DNA of 36,781 nucleotides from Nanobdellota archaeon (GTDB lineage: Archaea; Nanobdellota; Nanobdellia; Woesearchaeales; UBA11576). Of the stretch, positions 9,278 to 34,067 are shown piece by piece. The DNA lies in contig JAHJSS010000019.1 in NCBI GenBank assembly GCA_018830225.1, positions 1 to 36,781 of the forward strand, read 5' to 3'. The notes beneath the pieces were generated by a model that did no database searches, was not told where the DNA came from, and was given only the letters and a program-made list of their open reading frames with translations. Each line of letters opens with the position of its first letter. The first letter of the stretch is position 1. The translations under genes and the position numbers were made by a program.

Positions 9278-9423
9278 GGGGCTGTAGTATAACCTGGCTA
9301 GAATAGCTGGCTCCAGTCTTGGAGCGATGAGGCAATCTGCCGATGATTAAGGTGTCTGGTATGCCAAGACGTTGCTCTTGAGGAAGATACCAGCGGATCT
9401 GGGTTCAAATCCCAGCAGCCCCA
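9278..9423 (+). tRNA. trnW: tRNA-Trp (CCA anticodon) with a long anticodon-loop intron
   Basis: Acceptor GGGGCTG (9278-9284)/CAGCCCC (9416-9422); T-arm CTGGG TTCAAAT CCCAG (9399-9415); anticodon stem GCTGG (9306-9310)/CCAGC (9390-9394); loop CT-CCA-G then intron. 3' CCA not encoded. The D-stem is weak. Confidence 0.9.
9317..9388 (+). other. Predicted 72-nt tRNA-Trp intron at the canonical 37/38 position
   Basis: Removing 9317-9388 restores the 7-nt loop CTCCAGA between the anticodon-stem halves. A complete BHB motif was not established by hand. Confidence 0.7.
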
Positions 9424-9872
9424 TTTTTTTCTTTTTACTCTCCCCCCCTAAGTTCTGATGGAAACAAAAAAAAATGAGAACCGGTGTTCTTCAGACCAAT
9501 CTATTTATTTTATTACGTGGCAACGGTTGTATCTCATAATGTGTGATTATATAATATATATTATAATATATATTATTAATAATATAATAAACAAATATTT
9601 TCTATATGGAAAACAAAAAAAGCGTTTTTTGTTTTTGCTCGCAGTGGCTGTAATAGTATAATAATAAATAATTAAAACAAATTAAAACATTTTATTATTA
9701 ACAACCCAGTTCCACACGAAATAAAGGGGAGGGGGTAGGAAGAAAACCACTCGCTTCATAATATAGAAAAAACTAATAAATATAGCAATACAAGACCTGA
9801 AATACTAAAATAAAGACCTCTATTTCTACTGAAGAGTTAGCTTTATATACCTCTTCTTCATCTGGAGCAAAC
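9424..9872. other. Candidate replication origin (oriC) upstream of orc1/cdc6
   Basis: Noncoding, AT-rich, directly upstream of orc1/cdc6. Contains a 46-bp pure A/T tract (9546-9591) and ORB-like sites at 9451-9473, 9606-9622 and 9710-9735. Confidence 0.65.
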
Positions 9873-11130: not shown

Positions 11131-12660
11131 ATGTTGGAGATAGACAAAAAAAGGGAAATCGTGTCAACGCTGATGGGCAAAGGGATACTGCTAGACAGAG
11201 CAATGCTCGGCAAGATAGACACTATACCTGAACAAGAAAGATTCCACAGATTCATCCTCGACGACAACGCCGCCGGCCAAGAGGCTGACTTCACAAGACT
11301 TCTGGAAAAATACCTGCAGACCAGGACAGAACAGGCAGAAGCCGCGCCAGACACGACAGATACCCAAAACGCAAAAGTCGAAATCATATTCTCATACAAA
11401 GCAGAACCGAAGAAGAGGGAAGTCCAGGATTTCACCGGATACTTCACATCAAGGTACGATTCCTTGAGGTCCATACTGCAACACAGGAAGGAGCTTCAGA
11501 GCCTCACATCGATAAACCGGCTGAACCAGAAGAGGGAAAGGGAACAGACTGCGCTGATAGGCATGATAACAGACAAACAGGAGACAAAGACCGGCAAGAT
11601 AATGCTCACCGCAGAGGACATGACAGGAAAGATAAAAGTCATAGTATCACAAAACAGCGACGCATACGAGATAGCCAAGGAGACAACACTCGACGAGGTG
11701 CTGGGAATAGTCGGGACCTGCGCGGGCGACGTCATATTCGCGAGCAACCTCATACTGCCAGACATACCATTATACAAGGAGATGAAAAAAAGCCCTGACG
11801 AGGCATATGTGCTGTTCTTGGGTGACTTCCACCTTGGATCAAAGCTATTCCTGTGGGAACCATTCGAGAAACTGATAACCTGGATAAGAGGAGAGCAGGG
11901 CAACGAGAAACAGGCAGAGATAGCAAAGAAAGTCAAATACATATTCGTCACAGGAGACCTGGTCGAGGGGGTAGGGATATACCCTGACCAGGAGAAAGAC
12001 CTGGCGATAACAGACATATACGAGCAATACAATGAGCTCGCCAAACACCTCAGAAGGATACCACAGGACAAAAGGATAATAATCTGCCCGGGAAACCACG
12101 ACGCGATGAGGATAGCAGAGCCTCAACCTCCGCTGTACAAGGACTTCGCAGAGGCGGTCTGGAAGCTGCCGAATGTCACGATGGTCAGCAACCCTGCATA
12201 CGTAAACATACACAGCTCAGAAAGCTTCCCTGGTTTCGATGTCCTGATGTACCATGGCTTCAGCTTCATATACTATGCAAACGCAGTCGAATCTATAAGA
12301 AACAAAGGCGGGCAAAGGAGGCCAGACCTGATAATGAAATACCTTCTGCAGAGGAGACACCTAGCACCCACACACAAATCAACACTTTACCTCCCGGACG
12401 CGCAGAAAGACAGCCTAGTGATAGATAAGATCCCTGACTTCTTCGCAAGCGGACACATACACAGGACATCGGCAGCCAACTACAGGAATATCACTATGCT
12501 CAACTGCTCATCATGGCTGGAGATGACAGAATACCAGGAGAAAGTCGGCCTCATACCCCAGCCAGGAAGGGCCCTGCTCGTCAACCTGCAGACGAGGAAG
12601 GTGAAGATACTCAAGTTTTACGATGACACACAAAATGAAGAGCAGACAAGCGAGGAATGA
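11131..12660 (+). CDS. polB: DNA polymerase D small subunit DP1 (Mre11-like phosphoesterase)
   Basis: Motifs LGDFHLGSKLF, VTGDLVEGVGIYPDQ, CPGNHDAMR, YHGFSF and ASGHIHRT. Confidence 0.96.
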   Translation: MLEIDKKREIVSTLMGKGILLDRAMLGKIDTIPEQERFHRFILDDNAAGQEADFTRLLEKYLQTRTEQAEAAPDTTDTQNAKVEIIFSYKAEPKKREVQDFTGYFTSRYDSLRSILQHRKELQSLTSINRLNQKREREQTALIGMITDKQETKTGKIMLTAEDMTGKIKVIVSQNSDAYEIAKETTLDEVLGIVGTCAGDVIFASNLILPDIPLYKEMKKSPDEAYVLFLGDFHLGSKLFLWEPFEKLITWIRGEQGNEKQAEIAKKVKYIFVTGDLVEGVGIYPDQEKDLAITDIYEQYNELAKHLRRIPQDKRIIICPGNHDAMRIAEPQPPLYKDFAEAVWKLPNVTMVSNPAYVNIHSSESFPGFDVLMYHGFSFIYYANAVESIRNKGGQRRPDLIMKYLLQRRHLAPTHKSTLYLPDAQKDSLVIDKIPDFFASGHIHRTSAANYRNITMLNCSSWLEMTEYQEKVGLIPQPGRALLVNLQTRKVKILKFYDDTQNEEQTSEE

Positions 12661-12669
12661 GAAGATAAT

Positions 12670-15600
12670 ATGGTAATAGCCAGCCCAGATATGCAAAGAT
12701 ACTTCGACGAACTCCAGCGCAAGTGCAAGGAAGCGCACGACATAGCTACAGCAGCGAGGAAAAAAGGATATGACCCTGACGACTGCGTAGAGGTCCAGCT
12801 GGCATCTAACATGGCAGAGAGGGTTGTAGGCCTCATATCTGTCGTCGCTCCGCAGATAATCGGCAGCGGCGTCGTAGAGCGAATAATAGAGCTGGAACAG
12901 CAGTATGGCGTACTCGACTGGAGGGTAGCGCTGCAGATCGCACTAGAGGTCGCACAGGAGAAATTCTGCAAGTTCAAGGACAAAAAAGAGGCCATAGAGG
13001 TCGGCGTAAGGGTCGGGTTCGCCTATGGCACTGTCGGAGTGGTCAGCAGCCCGATAGAAGGATTGATATCAATAGACATAAAGAACAGAAGAGACGGAAA
13101 AGGAGAATACTTCTGCCTGAACTACGGCGGCCCGGTAAGGAATGCGGGCGGCACAGCTGCATCATGGTCTGTCATAATAGCGGACTATGTCCGGAAGAAC
13201 ACAGGATACGCAGTGTACGACCCAGACGAGAACGAAATAAAAAGATGCGCCACAGAAATCGAAGACTATCACGAAAGGGTCACAAACCTCCAATATTTCC
13301 CTTCAAAAGCGGAATCAGAGTTCATGATCAGGAATCTCCCTGTGGAGGTATCCGGAGACGCGTCAGAAGACATAGAAGTATCCAACTACAAGGACATCTC
13401 GAGGATACCCACCAACAAGATCAGGAGCGGATACTGCCTCATACACTCTAGCTGCATACCCTTGAAGGCAGAGAAGCTCTGGAAACAGCTCTCCAAGTGG
13501 GGAAAGGACTTTGGTATGGACCACTGGTCTTTCCTGGAGGAGTTCATAAAGATAAAGAAAGAGGCCCACGCAAAAGGGAAAGGGGCGAAGAAACAGCAGA
13601 CTGACGACGACAAGCATAAAGTGACCCCTGACTTCACGTACATCAAGGACCTCGTTGCAGGGAGGCCTGTTCTCGCGCACCCGCTGCGCACAGGAGGATT
13701 CAGGCTGAGATACGGCAGGAGCAGGACATCAGGATATTCTGCGCAATCAATCCATCCGGCATCCATGCACGTGATGAACAACTTCATAGCGACAGGAACT
13801 CAGCTCAAGGTTGAGAGGCCTGGAAAAGGGGCCGCGTTCACGCCATGCGACACCATAGAAGGCCCTGTCGTGAAGCTCAAAGACGGCAGCGTAGTCAGGC
13901 TTGACACAGAGCAGCAGGCAAAGGAAGTCAAGAAAGAAGTGATAGAAGTGCTGTTCTTAGGCGATGCTCTCATAAACTACGGCGACTTCCTCAACAGGAA
14001 TCACCTGCTGGTGCCGCCGGGATACTGCGAAGAATGGTGGATGAAAGAACTTGAGAAGAAGACGGTCTCCATATTCGGCAGCCTTGACACGTACAAGCTC
14101 GCAGAGATAACAGGGGCCAAACCACAGGAACTTGAGAGGATATTCAAGAAGCCGCTTAGGGATAAGCCGAACGCAAAGACCGCGCTGAACATAGCAAGAT
14201 CAACAAAGACGCCGCTCCACCCAAAGCACACATACTTCTGGAACGCAATAGACAAGACAGAGCTGATGCCTCTTGTTGATTGGCTCCACACGATGAGGAT
14301 AGAGACCGACGACGACGGCATAACAAAGGCGGTCCTGCAGAACAACAAGGAACAGAAAAGGGTGCTTGAAAGGATAGGGATACCACACATACTGGCGAGC
14401 AACGAGTTTGTCGTCTTCAGGAAAGATGAAGCGACCATACTCGAAGAGCTGCTGAAGATAGGATCCGAGAATGCGGAAGAAGTGAAGAACTGCCTCCAGA
14501 AGATAATCTCCGACGAAAAAACAAAAGACACCTTAGACGCACTCAACAGGCACTCAAACATAAGCCAAAGGGACAAATGCGGGATATTCATAGGGGCCAG
14601 GATGGGAAGGCCAGAAAAGGCAAAGATGCGCAAACTTACCGGCAGTCCACACGTCCTTTTCCCTGTTGGCGAGGAAGGGGGCAGGATGAGATCATTCCAG
14701 TCAGCGCTCACAGCAGGCAAGATAACAGCAGAGTTCCCGACATACAAATGCGAAAAATGCGGAAAAGAAACCATCTTTAGCGTATGCCTTGAATGCGAAA
14801 AGAAAGCGAAGAAGCAATACCACTGCAAGATATGCGGAACAATCGAGACAGACACCTGCCCGAAGCACGGGAAGACGACACCATACGTAAGAAGGGAGAT
14901 ACCGATAAACACCTACTTCGAGAACCTGCTGAGGAAGATGAAGACAAAGACATACCCTGACCTGATAAAAGGCGTCAGAGGCACCAGCAACAGGGAACAC
15001 ATACCAGAGCACCTCATGAAAGGCATACTCAGGGCGCAGAACAACGTCTATGTGAACAAAGAAGGCACGGTCAGGTATGACTGCTCAGAGCTCCCGATAA
15101 CGCACCTCAAGCCGAAAGAGATAGGCACAAGCATAGAACAGCTCAAGGAGATGGGTTACGACAAGGACACCAGAGGAAGGCCGCTCGAGAACGAAGAGCA
15201 GACGCTGGAACTTAAGCCCCAGGACGTGGTGATACCCTGCTGCCCGGACTCCCCTGACGAGCCCGCAGACGCAGTCCTTTTCAGGACCACAAAATTCGTC
15301 GATGACGAGCTTGAGATGCTCTACGGCCTGAAACCTTTCTATAAACTGCAGACAAAAGAGGATCTTGCAGGCCACCTGATAATAGGCCTTGCGCCCCACA
15401 CATCAGCAGGAACTATAGGGCGGATAATAGGCTTCTCCAAGACCCAAGGATTCTTCGCGCACCCCCTCATGCACGCGGCGATGCGCAGAGACTGTGATGG
15501 CGATGAGAGCTGCTTCATACTCCTGCTCGACGCATTCCTCAATTTCTCACGCAAATACCTGCCAGACTCAAGAGGAAGCACGATGGACGCTCCGCTTGTG

Positions 15601-16242
15601 CTCACCACGATACTGGCCCCTTCCGAGGTCGACGACATGGTATTCGACGTCGACAGGGAATGGACATACCCCCTTGAGTTCTACGAGGCCTGCCTTGAAT
15701 ACAAGCCAGCATGGGAGCTGAAGCTCGACACGATAAAGAAGGTCCTCAACACAGAGCAGCAGTACGAGGGCATGGGTTTCACACATGACACAGACAACAT
15801 AAACGCGGGGGTGCTCTGCTCATCATACAAGACTCTGCCGTCAATGCAGGACAAGCTGCTGGCCCAGATGGACCTCGCGCAGAAGATTCGTGCGGTCGAC
15901 GAGGCAGACGTCGCGAGACTCGTCATAGAGAAACACTTCATCAGGGACATAAAAGGGAATCTCAGGAAATTCTCACAGCAGGAGTTCAGGTGCGTGAACT
16001 GCAACGAGAAATTCAGAAGACCTCCCCTGCTAGGCAAATGCACCGCCTGCGGAGGCAAGATCATATTCACCATATCAGAAGGAAGCATCGTCAAGTACCT
16101 CGAACCCAGCATGAGCCTTGCGAACAAGTACAACCTGCCGACATACCTCAAGCAGACCCTCGAGCTGACGAAGCGGCGGATAGAAGGGGTATTCGGGAAA
16201 GAGAAGGAGAAACAGACAGGACTTGGCGCGTGGTTCGGTTAG
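12670..16242 (+). CDS. polC: DNA polymerase D large subunit DP2
   Basis: NYGGPVRNAGGTAAS, LRYGRSRTSGYSAQSIHPASM, RMGRPEKAKMR, catalytic RRDCDGDESCFILLLDAFLNFSRKYLPDSRGSTMDAPLVLT, zinc fingers. Confidence 0.97.
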   Translation: MVIASPDMQRYFDELQRKCKEAHDIATAARKKGYDPDDCVEVQLASNMAERVVGLISVVAPQIIGSGVVERIIELEQQYGVLDWRVALQIALEVAQEKFCKFKDKKEAIEVGVRVGFAYGTVGVVSSPIEGLISIDIKNRRDGKGEYFCLNYGGPVRNAGGTAASWSVIIADYVRKNTGYAVYDPDENEIKRCATEIEDYHERVTNLQYFPSKAESEFMIRNLPVEVSGDASEDIEVSNYKDISRIPTNKIRSGYCLIHSSCIPLKAEKLWKQLSKWGKDFGMDHWSFLEEFIKIKKEAHAKGKGAKKQQTDDDKHKVTPDFTYIKDLVAGRPVLAHPLRTGGFRLRYGRSRTSGYSAQSIHPASMHVMNNFIATGTQLKVERPGKGAAFTPCDTIEGPVVKLKDGSVVRLDTEQQAKEVKKEVIEVLFLGDALINYGDFLNRNHLLVPPGYCEEWWMKELEKKTVSIFGSLDTYKLAEITGAKPQELERIFKKPLRDKPNAKTALNIARSTKTPLHPKHTYFWNAIDKTELMPLVDWLHTMRIETDDDGITKAVLQNNKEQKRVLERIGIPHILASNEFVVFRKDEATILEELLKIGSENAEEVKNCLQKIISDEKTKDTLDALNRHSNISQRDKCGIFIGARMGRPEKAKMRKLTGSPHVLFPVGEEGGRMRSFQSALTAGKITAEFPTYKCEKCGKETIFSVCLECEKKAKKQYHCKICGTIETDTCPKHGKTTPYVRREIPINTYFENLLRKMKTKTYPDLIKGVRGTSNREHIPEHLMKGILRAQNNVYVNKEGTVRYDCSELPITHLKPKEIGTSIEQLKEMGYDKDTRGRPLENEEQTLELKPQDVVIPCCPDSPDEPADAVLFRTTKFVDDELEMLYGLKPFYKLQTKEDLAGHLIIGLAPHTSAGTIGRIIGFSKTQGFFAHPLMHAAMRRDCDGDESCFILLLDAFLNFSRKYLPDSRGSTMDAPLVLTTILAPSEVDDMVFDVDREWTYPLEFYEACLEYKPAWELKLDTIKKVLNTEQQYEGMGFTHDTDNINAGVLCSSYKTLPSMQDKLLAQMDLAQKIRAVDEADVARLVIEKHFIRDIKGNLRKFSQQEFRCVNCNEKFRRPPLLGKCTACGGKIIFTISEGSIVKYLEPSMSLANKYNLPTYLKQTLELTKRRIEGVFGKEKEKQTGLGAWFG

Positions 16243-29679: not shown

Positions 29680-32600
29680 CTAAATCTTCTGGATGAATCC
29701 TCTTTTCGGCTCGAAGATGTCTCCAGCCCTCTTCAGCTTTTCGATGACCTCCTCTGCCTTGTCTGCAGAGACTCCCTTATCCTGTGATTCCCTGATGACA
29801 TCCTCTACAGGGATGGTCTTGCCTATCTTGTTCTCCAGGTCATTTATGACCTCCTTTATCACGATGATATGGCTCCTTGCAGAGGATGATACGCCCGTCG
29901 TGAGCACGTCAACATCAATCTTCCCGGTGTCAGGGTCGATGCCGATCTGCGACATGCAGAAATGAAGCAGCTCAATAGCCTTCCTCGAGTCCCTCTTGGT
30001 GACCTTGTCAGAAAGCCTTGACCTGGCCGACGCTTCAGCAAGCCTCACAAGCCCCTCAAGCTGCCTCGCAGTGATAGGGATTGCCTTGATGCCGCCTTCC
30101 TCACCGCCAGAACCGCGCATCTTAACATAATATGCTTTTATTTCCTCCATAGCACCGTCGGTAAGCTTCGGCACACAGTTCCTCCGCGCATAGGCTATGT
30201 ACTTCCTGAGCATGTCAGTCTCAATGTCGCACGTACCTGCATCGCTGGTCTGGTGGAGATTCAGGACAAAGCCTGCAAGCTTCTCATCGTGCTCCCTGTT
30301 CGGCAAATCCCTTATAGGAAAAATAAGATCGAACCTGCTGATGAGCGCGGGAGGAAGATCAATCTGCTTGCCAAGGATCTCGTAAGGATCGAACCTGCCC
30401 CACTTAGGGTTGGCTGCCGCAAGGACAGTGGTCTCGCACCGAAGAGTGGCCTGGATATTGGCCTTAGAGATAGAGACTGTCTGCTGCTCAAGCGCTTCGT
30501 GCATCGCATCCCTATCCTCCTTGCTCATCTTGTCCATCTCATCAATCATGCAGAACCCCTTATTGGCAAGGACCAGCGCTCCTGCCTCCAAAGCCCAGCC
30601 GCGGAGGAACTCATCCCTAACTACAGCAGCAGTAAGGCCTGCACCTGAAGCACCCTTGCCGGACACGTACCTCGACTTAGGGGCGATGAGCTGAGCACGC
30701 TTGATAAGCTGAGAGTTATGGACAATTATAGCATTAGAGACAAAGTTGTGAGTATTGTCCACCTGAATATCATAGACGTATTCGCCGTCATTATCAATCT
30801 CTTCCTTGCTCGCCACAGCATCCCAGAAAACATCGCTCTCGGCAGCTCCCTTAAGCAGTCCAATCTCAAAGCCATCTATGCTGCGTGAATCCATTTCATC
30901 CACAATCTGCTTTAAATGGCCGAAGGAAGGGTTCCTGTCACCTTTTTCGTAATGCTGATAACTCGAACGGGATATTCCGAAATCGAACTGTGAAAGACCA
31001 TGCTTGAGACGTACGAAACGCAGGATTTCCTTCAACCCCGGAACCACCCTTATGTTGGTGTTAAACACCCTATCCATAGCCATGACTGCATCCAGCTGGC
31101 CCGTCTTATCTTTAGAGAAGAATCCTATCTTCTGGCCATATGCAATAACATCCACACCAGAAATACGCAGTTCGTAGTAATCCCTGACAATCTTCGCGGC
31201 TGTGTTGGTGGCGCACTTCCTCTTCTGCGACAGGGTGGATATAACCCCGAAACGAAGCAGCGCAATCTTCACATCCTCAATAAGATCCCTGCTCTTTGAA
31301 ACGAGCTCTATCTGCCGACGCCCTTTCCTGACATGCGCATCACACTCGAACAGCGCCCTCAAAAACTCCCGCATCACAAACTCAGGAGACCTGTTCACTG
31401 CTTGAGGAATTGTTTTTCCAGCAGATTTCAAGTACAGCCTGCTGTCGATCTTCTCCAGGAGACGAGCAAACTCTATACTCGTCGTGTAAGCCTCTTCAGC
31501 GCTCTTCCCTGAATGCGGGCGCCTGCGCGTAACGCGAACACCAAACTTATCCTCAAGAATCCTCTTGAAGTCAGACAGAACCGCCTCATTGTTGTTGGTA
31601 AGAGAGACGAATGCCCCTTTCTCCTTAAGCCTGAGCCAGCCGTCACCAACAAGATAGCCCAACACCCTAGCAATCTCCCCGTCGATGTGGTGAGGTATCC
31701 TGATGCTGACCTTACTACCCCCCCTCGACCTCAAAAAGTCCGTCGGACACGGCTGCATAGCGCTCTGAGTGACTATCTTTGAAGGAGACGCTATGAAATC
31801 ACCTTCCTTCATCTCCTCTGCAGCCTTAGGCACAATAAAACCATTATTTGCCGTAAAGAAAGGATGGTTCTTAGTGACGACAATGCTGTTACCTGTCTTG
31901 GTCCTAATCTTCAGAAGCCTATCTTCCTTCCGCCTCCATACAACCCTAGATGTATTAGAACCCGCTTTTGCATTCTCATCAAATGAAACTACATTGAAAG
32001 GGTCAGAACAGGCATAGCCCCCGTCTCCTAGCAGCTTACCCATCCTACAATCAACAAGTTCACCTACTCTGACAATTGAGCCGTCGGATAAAACCAATTT
32101 GGAGTCCTTATGCAAGCACTTCCCTGCGCCCGGGTCGCCCACAAGAAGGATGTGCATGTCACCCCTAGTGACAACCCCATCGGTCCGCACCTTCCGCACA
32201 CCTCCAAGAAGCTGGAGGATTATAGCCTCCTTGACCTTGTCATGGCCGTATATCGACGGAGCCATGGAATTCACCAGCTTGTTGAGTATCTTCGGGTCCC
32301 TCGAGAGCTCAATTATCTTCTTCTCCTCTTCTTCTTTGATAGTTATGTCGCCGAAGCTCTCCTCCAGAGGCTCCACAAAATTCGAGTCTATCATGAGGTC
32401 AAACCTAACAAGCTTTCCGCCATCCTTCGAAGGGATGGGAACCTCCTTAACCTGGCCGACGACATGCACCTTTGTCCCGGGGTTGGTCTTCTTGTCGCTC
32501 AGAGTAGAGACGAGGTCGTTCTTCAGGAAGATGTCAATCCTCTTCGGCTGGTCACCACCCTCAAGATTCTCAGGAATCTCCTCAAGGACAATCTTCTGAG

Positions 32601-33102
32601 CATCGACAAGCTCCTTAGATACCAGCCTGAACTTGCCCTTCCTGCCGCACCCGCACCTGCTCGGCTCCTTGAACTTGGCCTCAAGCTGGATGACAGACAT
32701 GATATTGCCGCAGCTGGGGCACTCGAACCTCGCAGTCGTCACCTGAGGCCTGACATCAGACTTCTGACGGACAAGACCATTGAGGCAGATCAGCCTGTCT
32801 ATGTTCAGGCTCCTTATGTCCCTTATCTTTATCTCCTGGCTCTTAGGGATGTTCTTGAAACGGACAAAGAACCTGGTCACTGATTCAGGGACATCAAGGT
32901 TCTTGATGGCAATCTCGAACGCCTTCATGACCTCCTCAGGCTGGTCGAGGAGAAGATCTGCGAGCTCAGGATCGAACTTAGAAAGATCGACGAAGTCAAT
33001 GACCATGAAATTATTTCCGAGACTAACTGCCTCAAGAAGCTGAACATGGTAGTCCTGCTCGATGAAGTGCTCAAACCTCTTTATCTGTTCTGATACATCC
33101 AT
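29680..33102 (-). CDS. mcm: Replicative helicase MCM, interrupted by an intein
   Basis: Exteins contain the MCM zinc finger CPSCGNIM...CGCGRKG, GDPGAGK/SQLIKRAQLIAPKSRYVSGKGASGAGLTA, MIDEMDKM and RFDLIF motifs. 1140 aa including a 468-aa intein. Confidence 0.97.
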   Translation of the reverse strand: MDVSEQIKRFEHFIEQDYHVQLLEAVSLGNNFMVIDFVDLSKFDPELADLLLDQPEEVMKAFEIAIKNLDVPESVTRFFVRFKNIPKSQEIKIRDIRSLNIDRLICLNGLVRQKSDVRPQVTTARFECPSCGNIMSVIQLEAKFKEPSRCGCGRKGKFRLVSKELVDAQKIVLEEIPENLEGGDQPKRIDIFLKNDLVSTLSDKKTNPGTKVHVVGQVKEVPIPSKDGGKLVRFDLMIDSNFVEPLEESFGDITIKEEEEKKIIELSRDPKILNKLVNSMAPSIYGHDKVKEAIILQLLGGVRKVRTDGVVTRGDMHILLVGDPGAGKCLHKDSKLVLSDGSIVRVGELVDCRMGKLLGDGGYACSDPFNVVSFDENAKAGSNTSRVVWRRKEDRLLKIRTKTGNSIVVTKNHPFFTANNGFIVPKAAEEMKEGDFIASPSKIVTQSAMQPCPTDFLRSRGGSKVSIRIPHHIDGEIARVLGYLVGDGWLRLKEKGAFVSLTNNNEAVLSDFKRILEDKFGVRVTRRRPHSGKSAEEAYTTSIEFARLLEKIDSRLYLKSAGKTIPQAVNRSPEFVMREFLRALFECDAHVRKGRRQIELVSKSRDLIEDVKIALLRFGVISTLSQKRKCATNTAAKIVRDYYELRISGVDVIAYGQKIGFFSKDKTGQLDAVMAMDRVFNTNIRVVPGLKEILRFVRLKHGLSQFDFGISRSSYQHYEKGDRNPSFGHLKQIVDEMDSRSIDGFEIGLLKGAAESDVFWDAVASKEEIDNDGEYVYDIQVDNTHNFVSNAIIVHNSQLIKRAQLIAPKSRYVSGKGASGAGLTAAVVRDEFLRGWALEAGALVLANKGFCMIDEMDKMSKEDRDAMHEALEQQTVSISKANIQATLRCETTVLAAANPKWGRFDPYEILGKQIDLPPALISRFDLIFPIRDLPNREHDEKLAGFVLNLHQTSDAGTCDIETDMLRKYIAYARRNCVPKLTDGAMEEIKAYYVKMRGSGGEEGGIKAIPITARQLEGLVRLAEASARSRLSDKVTKRDSRKAIELLHFCMSQIGIDPDTGKIDVDVLTTGVSSSARSHIIVIKEVINDLENKIGKTIPVEDVIRESQDKGVSADKAEEVIEKLKRAGDIFEPKRGFIQKI
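30715..32118 (-). other. Intein in the MCM Walker A motif with LAGLIDADG endonuclease and HTH segments
   Basis: Starts at Cys after GDPGAGK (CLHKDSKLVLSDGS), block B VVTKNHPFF, LAGLIDADG-like VLGYLVGDGWL and FLRALFECDAHV, ends DNTHNFVSNAIIVHN before Ser. 1404 nt = 468 codons in frame. Confidence 0.95.
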
Positions 33103-33256: not shown

Positions 33257-33817
33257 TTACTTGACCTTCTTGAGGTTCTCGATCAACGCATCCAATGCCT
33301 GATGCACCTGATGCTCTGACTTGGTGCCTGTGCAGACAACCTTGCCGTTAGAGAACAGCAGGAATGTAGCTTTGAACACCTTCTCACCCTTAGGTTCCAC
33401 ATTGATCTTATAGACAAGACCTGGGAACTGTTCAGGCTCGTACTCGGTGTTCTGCAGCTTCATGGCAAGGACGTTCAGGTTGAGGTCCATGCCGACACTG
33501 CCAGCAGCCACAATGTTCTGTACAGTCACTTTAGGCTCTATCGTTATCTTTATGTTGATCTTCTCAAGGCTCTTGATTATCTGCTTAATGGACTTCTGGA
33601 CATCATCCAATGTCCTGGCCCCTGTGCAGACTATCTTGCCAGAATTGAAAATCAAAGCCGAGGTCTTTGGCTCCTTTATTCGTATAACCAAGCCGGGAAA
33701 CTGCTCAGGATTGTATTCTGTGTTGGAAAGCGTTGCCGCCATCTTCTCTAAAGGGATGTCGTGCCCTAAAGAGGAGGAAACAACGATATTAACAACTCTA
33801 ATGTCCTTTTTAGTCAT
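33257..33817 (-). CDS. tbp: TATA-binding protein TBP
   Basis: Two TBP half-repeats: NIVVSSSLGHDIPLEKMAATLSNTEYNPEQFPGLVIRIKEPKTSALIFNSGKIVCTGA and NIVAAGSVGMDLNLNVLAMKLQNTEYEPEQFPGLVYKI...FSNGKVVCTGTK. Confidence 0.97.
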   Translation of the reverse strand: MTKKDIRVVNIVVSSSLGHDIPLEKMAATLSNTEYNPEQFPGLVIRIKEPKTSALIFNSGKIVCTGARTLDDVQKSIKQIIKSLEKINIKITIEPKVTVQNIVAAGSVGMDLNLNVLAMKLQNTEYEPEQFPGLVYKINVEPKGEKVFKATFLLFSNGKVVCTGTKSEHQVHQALDALIENLKKVK

Positions 33818-34067
33818 TTTTAACCCCCCACCAGTTTATAAAGCAAATATAAACTATTTAAATAAAAAAACACTCATCCTTTATAAATACTATTATTACA
33901 AAATATATATTTGAGAAACTATTTTTTATAAAGGCGATGCCCCCTTTATTTCTCATGGAAACTGTGTTTTTGTGCCATAATTCAGCACCTACAGACGTTT
34001 TCAAAAAATGCTATTTATAAAAAGATTTTTATATTAAGAGTGTTCGTTGGAAAAGGTGACAACAAAA

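Follow-up and report, generated by a model that had tools for sequence, protein, structure and literature searches.

Gene neighbourhood and the gap upstream of orc1

The window analysed here, a DNA stretch of 36,781 nt, is contig C10 of an 81-contig, 1.32-Mb draft assembly that is 93% complete. It carries orc1/cdc6 followed by the genes for both PolD subunits, with an intron-bearing tRNA gene on the 5′ side (9278–9423), and, further along the contig, tbp and mcm on the opposite strand (Table 1). The encoded Orc1 shares 96% identity with its counterpart in Candidatus Woesearchaeota isolate Zod_Metabat.265, and its further relatives are, in order, mostly from Woesearchaeota and then from Pacearchaeota. 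Among proteins of solved structure, Orc1-1 of S. solfataricus (2qby_A, 372.7 bits) is the best relative; the alignments with this protein and with A. pernix ORC1 (2v1u) are near full-length and include the wing segment GRYGRTRE, and the winged helix is conserved. The same genome encodes a second, divergent Orc paralogue (L002, G000:C55:149–1042, minus strand; 27% identity); such a paralogue is present in most relatives, and a third class (30–33% identity) in most of the window's own family. The tRNA gene, apparently tRNA-Trp(CCA), has a long intron with box C/D-like motifs (CGATGA, CGATGAT) and was detected by Rfam but missed by ARAGORN, which found no tRNA in the window or in 12 further loci.

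Table 1. Coordinates of the predicted features in the window
Feature	Position	Strand	Remarks
Left ORB	9442..9465	-	core 9444–9463 TTCCATCAGAACTTAGGGGG; outward G-string is the C-run 9442–9448; score 16.0, rank 3 of window
AT-rich spacer, candidate duplex unwinding element	9466..9707	.	78% AT by composition; 9536–9605 is 93% AT
Right ORB	9708..9735	+	core 9710–9729 TTCCACACGAAATAAAGGGG; extended G-string GGGGAGGGGG 9726–9735; score 28.1, rank 1 of window
Degenerate ORB, candidate autoregulatory site	9846..9869	-	between TATA box (9842–9849) and orc1 ATG (9873); score 11.3
orc1/cdc6, Orc1-1 type initiator, 402 aa	9873..11081	+	Pfam Cdc6_C, Cdc6_lid, AAA families; 2qby_A, 2v1u_A
DNA polymerase II (PolD) small subunit DP1	11131..12660	+	Pfam DNA_pol_E_B
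DNA polymerase II (PolD) large subunit DP2	12670..16242	+	Pfam PolC_DP2 N, central and catalytic domains
mcm, replicative helicase, intein-interrupted	29680..33102	-	Pfam MCM, Intein_splicing, LAGLIDADG_3
tbp, TATA-binding protein	33257..33817	-	Pfam TBP, 9.8e-58
Lone ORB upstream of tbp–mcm	33939..33962	-	core 33941–33960 TTCCATGAGAAATAAAGGGG; perfect pattern match; score 26.4

The 449-bp gap that precedes orc1 is indeed noncoding, as the first-pass annotation had it, and the three strings in which that annotation recognised origin recognition boxes (ORBs) of one orientation are all present at 9451–9473, around 9605–9622 and at 9710–9735. We scored them with an ORB profile for which the right-hand sites preceding orc1 in 91 relatives served as the training set; neither the window nor its near-identical sister was included. 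The third string is a true ORB on the plus strand, the best match of the window and a perfect match to TTCCANNNGAAANNNAGGGG. The first had been read on the wrong strand: the plus strand there scores −5.4 (rank 142), whereas the minus strand at 9442–9465 (GTTTCCATCAGAACTTAGGGGGGG) is a real ORB. The middle string is not an ORB (score −7.2, rank 212), and the supposed common orientation has to be abandoned, since the two genuine ORBs form an inverted pair of the sort seen in known archaeal origins.

The gap thus holds what characterises an oriC1-type origin: at least two ORBs of the form TTCCA-n3-GAAA plus G-string (9708–9731 at 28.1 and 9442–9465 at 16.0), inverted, minus then plus, around an AT-rich candidate unwinding element, with the initiator gene adjoining. 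The G-strings point outward from a spacer of 242 nt that includes a 70-nt stretch of particularly high AT content. The core and the G-string of the right ORB are retained in the sister locus L032, and the contig of the closest sister begins 172 bp upstream of orc1, short of the left-ORB position. Most relatives have a stronger left ORB than the window. Profile matches below the right, tbp–mcm and left ORBs lie at 9813–9836 on the minus strand (12.7), at 12289 on the plus strand (12.6) and at 9846–9869 on the minus strand (11.3). The match at 9813–9836, a would-be second promoter ORB, is not retained in the 96% sister L032 and was treated as a chance occurrence, and the match at 12289, inside DP1, is within the range of background matches.

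Conservation, specificity and GC skew

Among 79 orthologous orc1 upstream regions, each of at least 450 nt, a minus-strand ORB lies to the left of a plus-strand ORB in 70 and the order is opposite in 3, while the inverted pair occurs in none of 237 dinucleotide shuffles and never with the reversed profile. The loci are related by descent, so that these counts are not independent, and those of the right site are partly circular, the profile having been trained on right sites, whereas the left-site counts are not. The spacer of the relatives has a median length of 228 nt and a median AT content of 85%, and the position and strand of the ORBs are conserved across many genera.

ORB matches are not equally common elsewhere in the genome, and the candidate origin withstands this check, strong matches being nearly absent outside. 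Across the 1.32-Mb assembly, only two perfect matches to TTCCANNNGAAANNNAGGGG were found, at 9710 and 33941, both on the contig of the window. Profile matches of at least 11.3 number four in the 449-bp gap alone, as many as in the 258,132 bp sampled from the rest of the genome. In the 258 kb of other contigs, a single match is strong (23.2, at the end of contig C17), the rest falling within the range of the reversed-profile control; none of 503 control windows of 500 nt scores 16 or more, these windows having been cut end to end, with the C17 match falling in the leftover tail. This match (L142:7715–7738; G000:C17:19714–19737), the only other strong one in the sampled genome, is near a TATA-like sequence at the contig end and several hundred bp upstream of a gene on the opposite strand that encodes a large, secreted protein resembling S-layer proteins. 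When seven genomes were scanned in full, strong ORB matches were concentrated in three places: oriC, tbp and the interior of a Pacearchaeota winged-helix gene.

The raw GC skew of the window tracks gene strand and is uninformative. Skew was therefore assessed at third codon positions (GC3), with the gene-strand effect removed, in sampled stretches of five related genomes, the window's own genome being a draft of 81 contigs. In three of the five, a strand-corrected step was found no more than about 100 kb from orc1. For G020, a complete genome, the single-origin fit places the origin at 780–860 kb and the terminus at 140 kb, with orc1 at 764 kb; no permutation out of 100 fitted as well. In G024:C2, the step is at 400 kb and orc1 at 376 kb, splits at 260–280 kb being nearly as good; in G030:C1, the step is at 420–480 kb and orc1 at 394 kb. 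In these three genomes, the best-fit steps are displaced 20–90 kb rightward from orc1, and the sampling spacing of 15–65 kb resolves this displacement poorly. In the sampled stretches of AR20 and Pace33H, strand-corrected GC3 skew gave no significant signal.

ORBs outside the inverted pair

The first-pass annotation missed the predicted ORB on the orc1 core promoter, which is retained in the sister L032 and conserved in Woesearchaeales. When at most one mismatch in TTCCANNNGAAAY was allowed, the promoter site was found in 36 of 56 Woesearchaeales-like upstream regions, versus 1/56 in a control interval and 0/56 with the reversed pattern, and in only 3 of 37 Pacearchaeota-like loci. The plus strand of the same promoter interval matches in 13/56 because the motif is partly palindromic. 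Given that Orc1 bound at 9846–9869 would collide with the transcription machinery, autorepression of orc1 by its own product is the likely role of this site.

The perfect ORB at 33941 was likewise overlooked. It precedes tbp by 124 bp within an AT-rich intergenic region, and an ORB scoring at least 16 is present at 25 of 30 Woesearchaeales tbp loci, that of the window included; in the relatives, it has the same orientation and lies at about −120 to −335 from tbp. In all 30 loci, tbp is followed by mcm, and the divergent DUF192 gene was not detected at many loci that retain the ORB, which therefore goes with tbp–mcm. Where orc1 and tbp share a contig, they are about 5–27 kb apart. Initiator-titrating regions of the datA/oriC2D type are dense clusters of initiator sites; here, there is one ORB at 33941, and one or two in relatives, so that we class the site as an outlying ORB and not as a member of this type. 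The mcm intein combines LAGLIDADG domains with an additional HTH_3 domain.

Among Pacearchaeota, only 2 of 30 tbp loci have an ORB. In this group, a strong ORB is instead found near orc1, at 30 of 30 loci, within the linker coding sequence of a coiled-coil/winged-helix protein (L285–L314, e.g., L285:1912 on the minus and L290:1711 on the plus strand; also L188:12239 and L097:1450). In 29 of the 30, the ORB encodes variants of SSIGNEGV (AGT TCC ATA GGA AAT GAA GGG GTT), with almost frozen codons (TCC 29/29, GGA 29/29, GGG 28/29, GTT 29/29); elsewhere in these winged-helix genes, TCC accounts for only 10% of serine codons. Such near-frozen codon choice points to selection on the presumptive DNA site, and this site is possibly an origin-like or titration element inside the gene. 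Some of the loci have a second ORB 43 bp away, and the linker often runs on as TDRQTDRQ, a CAGA-type repeat. The Woesearchaeales homologues of the protein contain no intragenic ORB. One member of the winged-helix family matches DnaD_N weakly, falling short of the curated cut-off.

Proposed mechanism and rival explanations

The inverted pair in 70 of 79 loci, the adjacent Orc1-1-type initiator gene and the skew change near orc1 in three of five relatives all support the candidate oriC beside orc1/cdc6. Sulfolobus oriC1 has two ORBs in inverted orientation, one on either side of the duplex unwinding element (DUE); neither ORB is dispensable, and Orc1-ATP, once bound to them, guides MCM to the DUE (PMC12141716). 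The minimal origin of Haloarcula oriC1 consists of two inverted ORBs, with G-strings at the ends, and an AT-rich region, and mutation of either G-string abolishes function (PMC3936714). The layout at 9442–9735 is the same, and we therefore infer the same mechanism: Orc1/Cdc6 produced from the adjacent gene would bind the two inverted ORBs, with their G-strings outward, and the two bound initiators would face each other across the AT-rich spacer, help to melt it and load MCM there. Through the degraded third ORB on the orc1 core promoter, Orc1 probably limits its own synthesis; through the ORB upstream of tbp–mcm, it probably tunes expression of the helicase and of TBP, unless that site acts as an initiator sink. 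Taken as a whole, the best explanation is that 9442–9735 is the chromosomal replication origin of this Woesearchaeota-type archaeon, of the archaeal oriC1 kind and working by this proposed mechanism, and we consider it very probable; that the origin is real and of a known kind is held with high confidence.

Conceivably, the ORBs could be mere Orc1 operators regulating orc1–DP1–DP2, with replication starting elsewhere, for example from a second Orc-dependent origin or by recombination. Predicted Orc1 sites also over the orc1 core promoter and upstream of tbp–mcm do suggest that such sites are not confined to origins, and a second, divergent Orc gene exists on contig C55. However, the inverted pair around its long AT-rich spacer is conserved as a pair and stands well away from the promoter, at least 165 nt upstream; moreover, the skew switch in G020 is consistent with a single origin near orc1, and such pairs have proved to be origins where tested (PMC12141716, PMC3936714), so that we regard this scenario as improbable. 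Still less probable is that the lone ORB at 33941 belongs to a replication origin, either the main one or a second. This ORB is perfect and sits in an AT-rich intergenic gap beside mcm, and the best skew fits for G020 include 780 kb, close to tbp at 781 kb. Nevertheless, it is single, without an inverted partner, whereas in Sulfolobus and Haloarcula an origin deprived of one ORB of its pair is impaired or inactive (PMC12141716, PMC3936714); it is missing from 5/30 Woesearchaeales and 28/30 Pacearchaeota loci, and in G024 and G030, tbp and the skew step lie on opposite sides of orc1.

Finally, resemblance to ORBs could arise by chance in an AT-rich gap containing G-runs, as indeed happened with the middle string of the first-pass annotation and with the weak match at 9813–9836 that the sister lacks. 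For the two main ORBs, this explanation is already refuted by conservation, their position and strand being shared across many genera and strong matches being nearly absent elsewhere, and its probability for the locus is negligible.

The oriC1-type origin proposed here differs in several respects from its experimentally proven counterparts. Like Sulfolobus oriC1 (ORB3–DUE–ORB2; PMC12141716), it combines inverted ORBs around an AT-rich DUE with an adjacent Orc1-1-type initiator gene, but the spacer of 242 nt compares with an ORB3–DUE–ORB2 region of 130 bp, the PolD genes follow, and an extra degenerate ORB is present on the orc1 core promoter. With oriC1 of Haloarcula hispanica (PMC3936714), it shares two inverted ORBs, long outward G-strings (a C-run on the left and a G-run on the right) and an AT-rich centre, but lacks an inner G-rich inverted repeat (enhancer) between the ORBs and has other neighbouring genes. 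The ORBs outside the pair have parallels as well. Haloarcula oriC2D and E. coli datA, which titrate initiators (PMC3936714), also place initiator-binding sites, here predicted ones, away from the origin core; unlike the 11-ORB cluster adjoining an initiator gene, there are one or sometimes two ORBs upstream of the conserved tbp–mcm. The predicted initiator site over the initiator gene's own promoter resembles autoregulation through the DnaA boxes of the dnaA promoter (mentioned in PMC3936714), except that the promoter is an archaeal TATA promoter with the degraded ORB between TATA and ATG, and that the site is conserved in Woesearchaeales-like but not in Pacearchaeota-like loci.

A search confined to the open-access literature turned up no description of an origin or of ORBs in Woesearchaeota or any other DPANN archaea, and the motif clusters of Ori-Finder 2 include no DPANN group (PMC4164010). 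What is new here is the corrected anatomy and the outlying ORBs, the origin itself being of a known kind. A broader proposition, which in our judgement could equally well prove right or wrong, is that Orc1 of these DPANN archaea is also a regulator outside the origin, acting at an order-specific outlying ORB (upstream of tbp–mcm in Woesearchaeales, in the coiled-coil/winged-helix gene in Pacearchaeota) within about 30 kb of orc1 where linkage is readable, and that this ORB couples initiator level to helicase and TBP expression or titrates the initiator. The ORBs at the orc1 promoter, at tbp–mcm and in the Pacearchaeota gene make initiation control in uncultured DPANN testable with purified Orc1, and the corrected motif and layout in about 70 loci provide an origin map for growth-rate estimates from metagenome coverage. 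As for the assemblies, contig ends are strongly enriched just upstream of orc1: 24 of 77 loci (L032–L110) end no more than 750 bp upstream versus 3 downstream (sign test, 2.5e-5), and assemblies seem to break at the origin.
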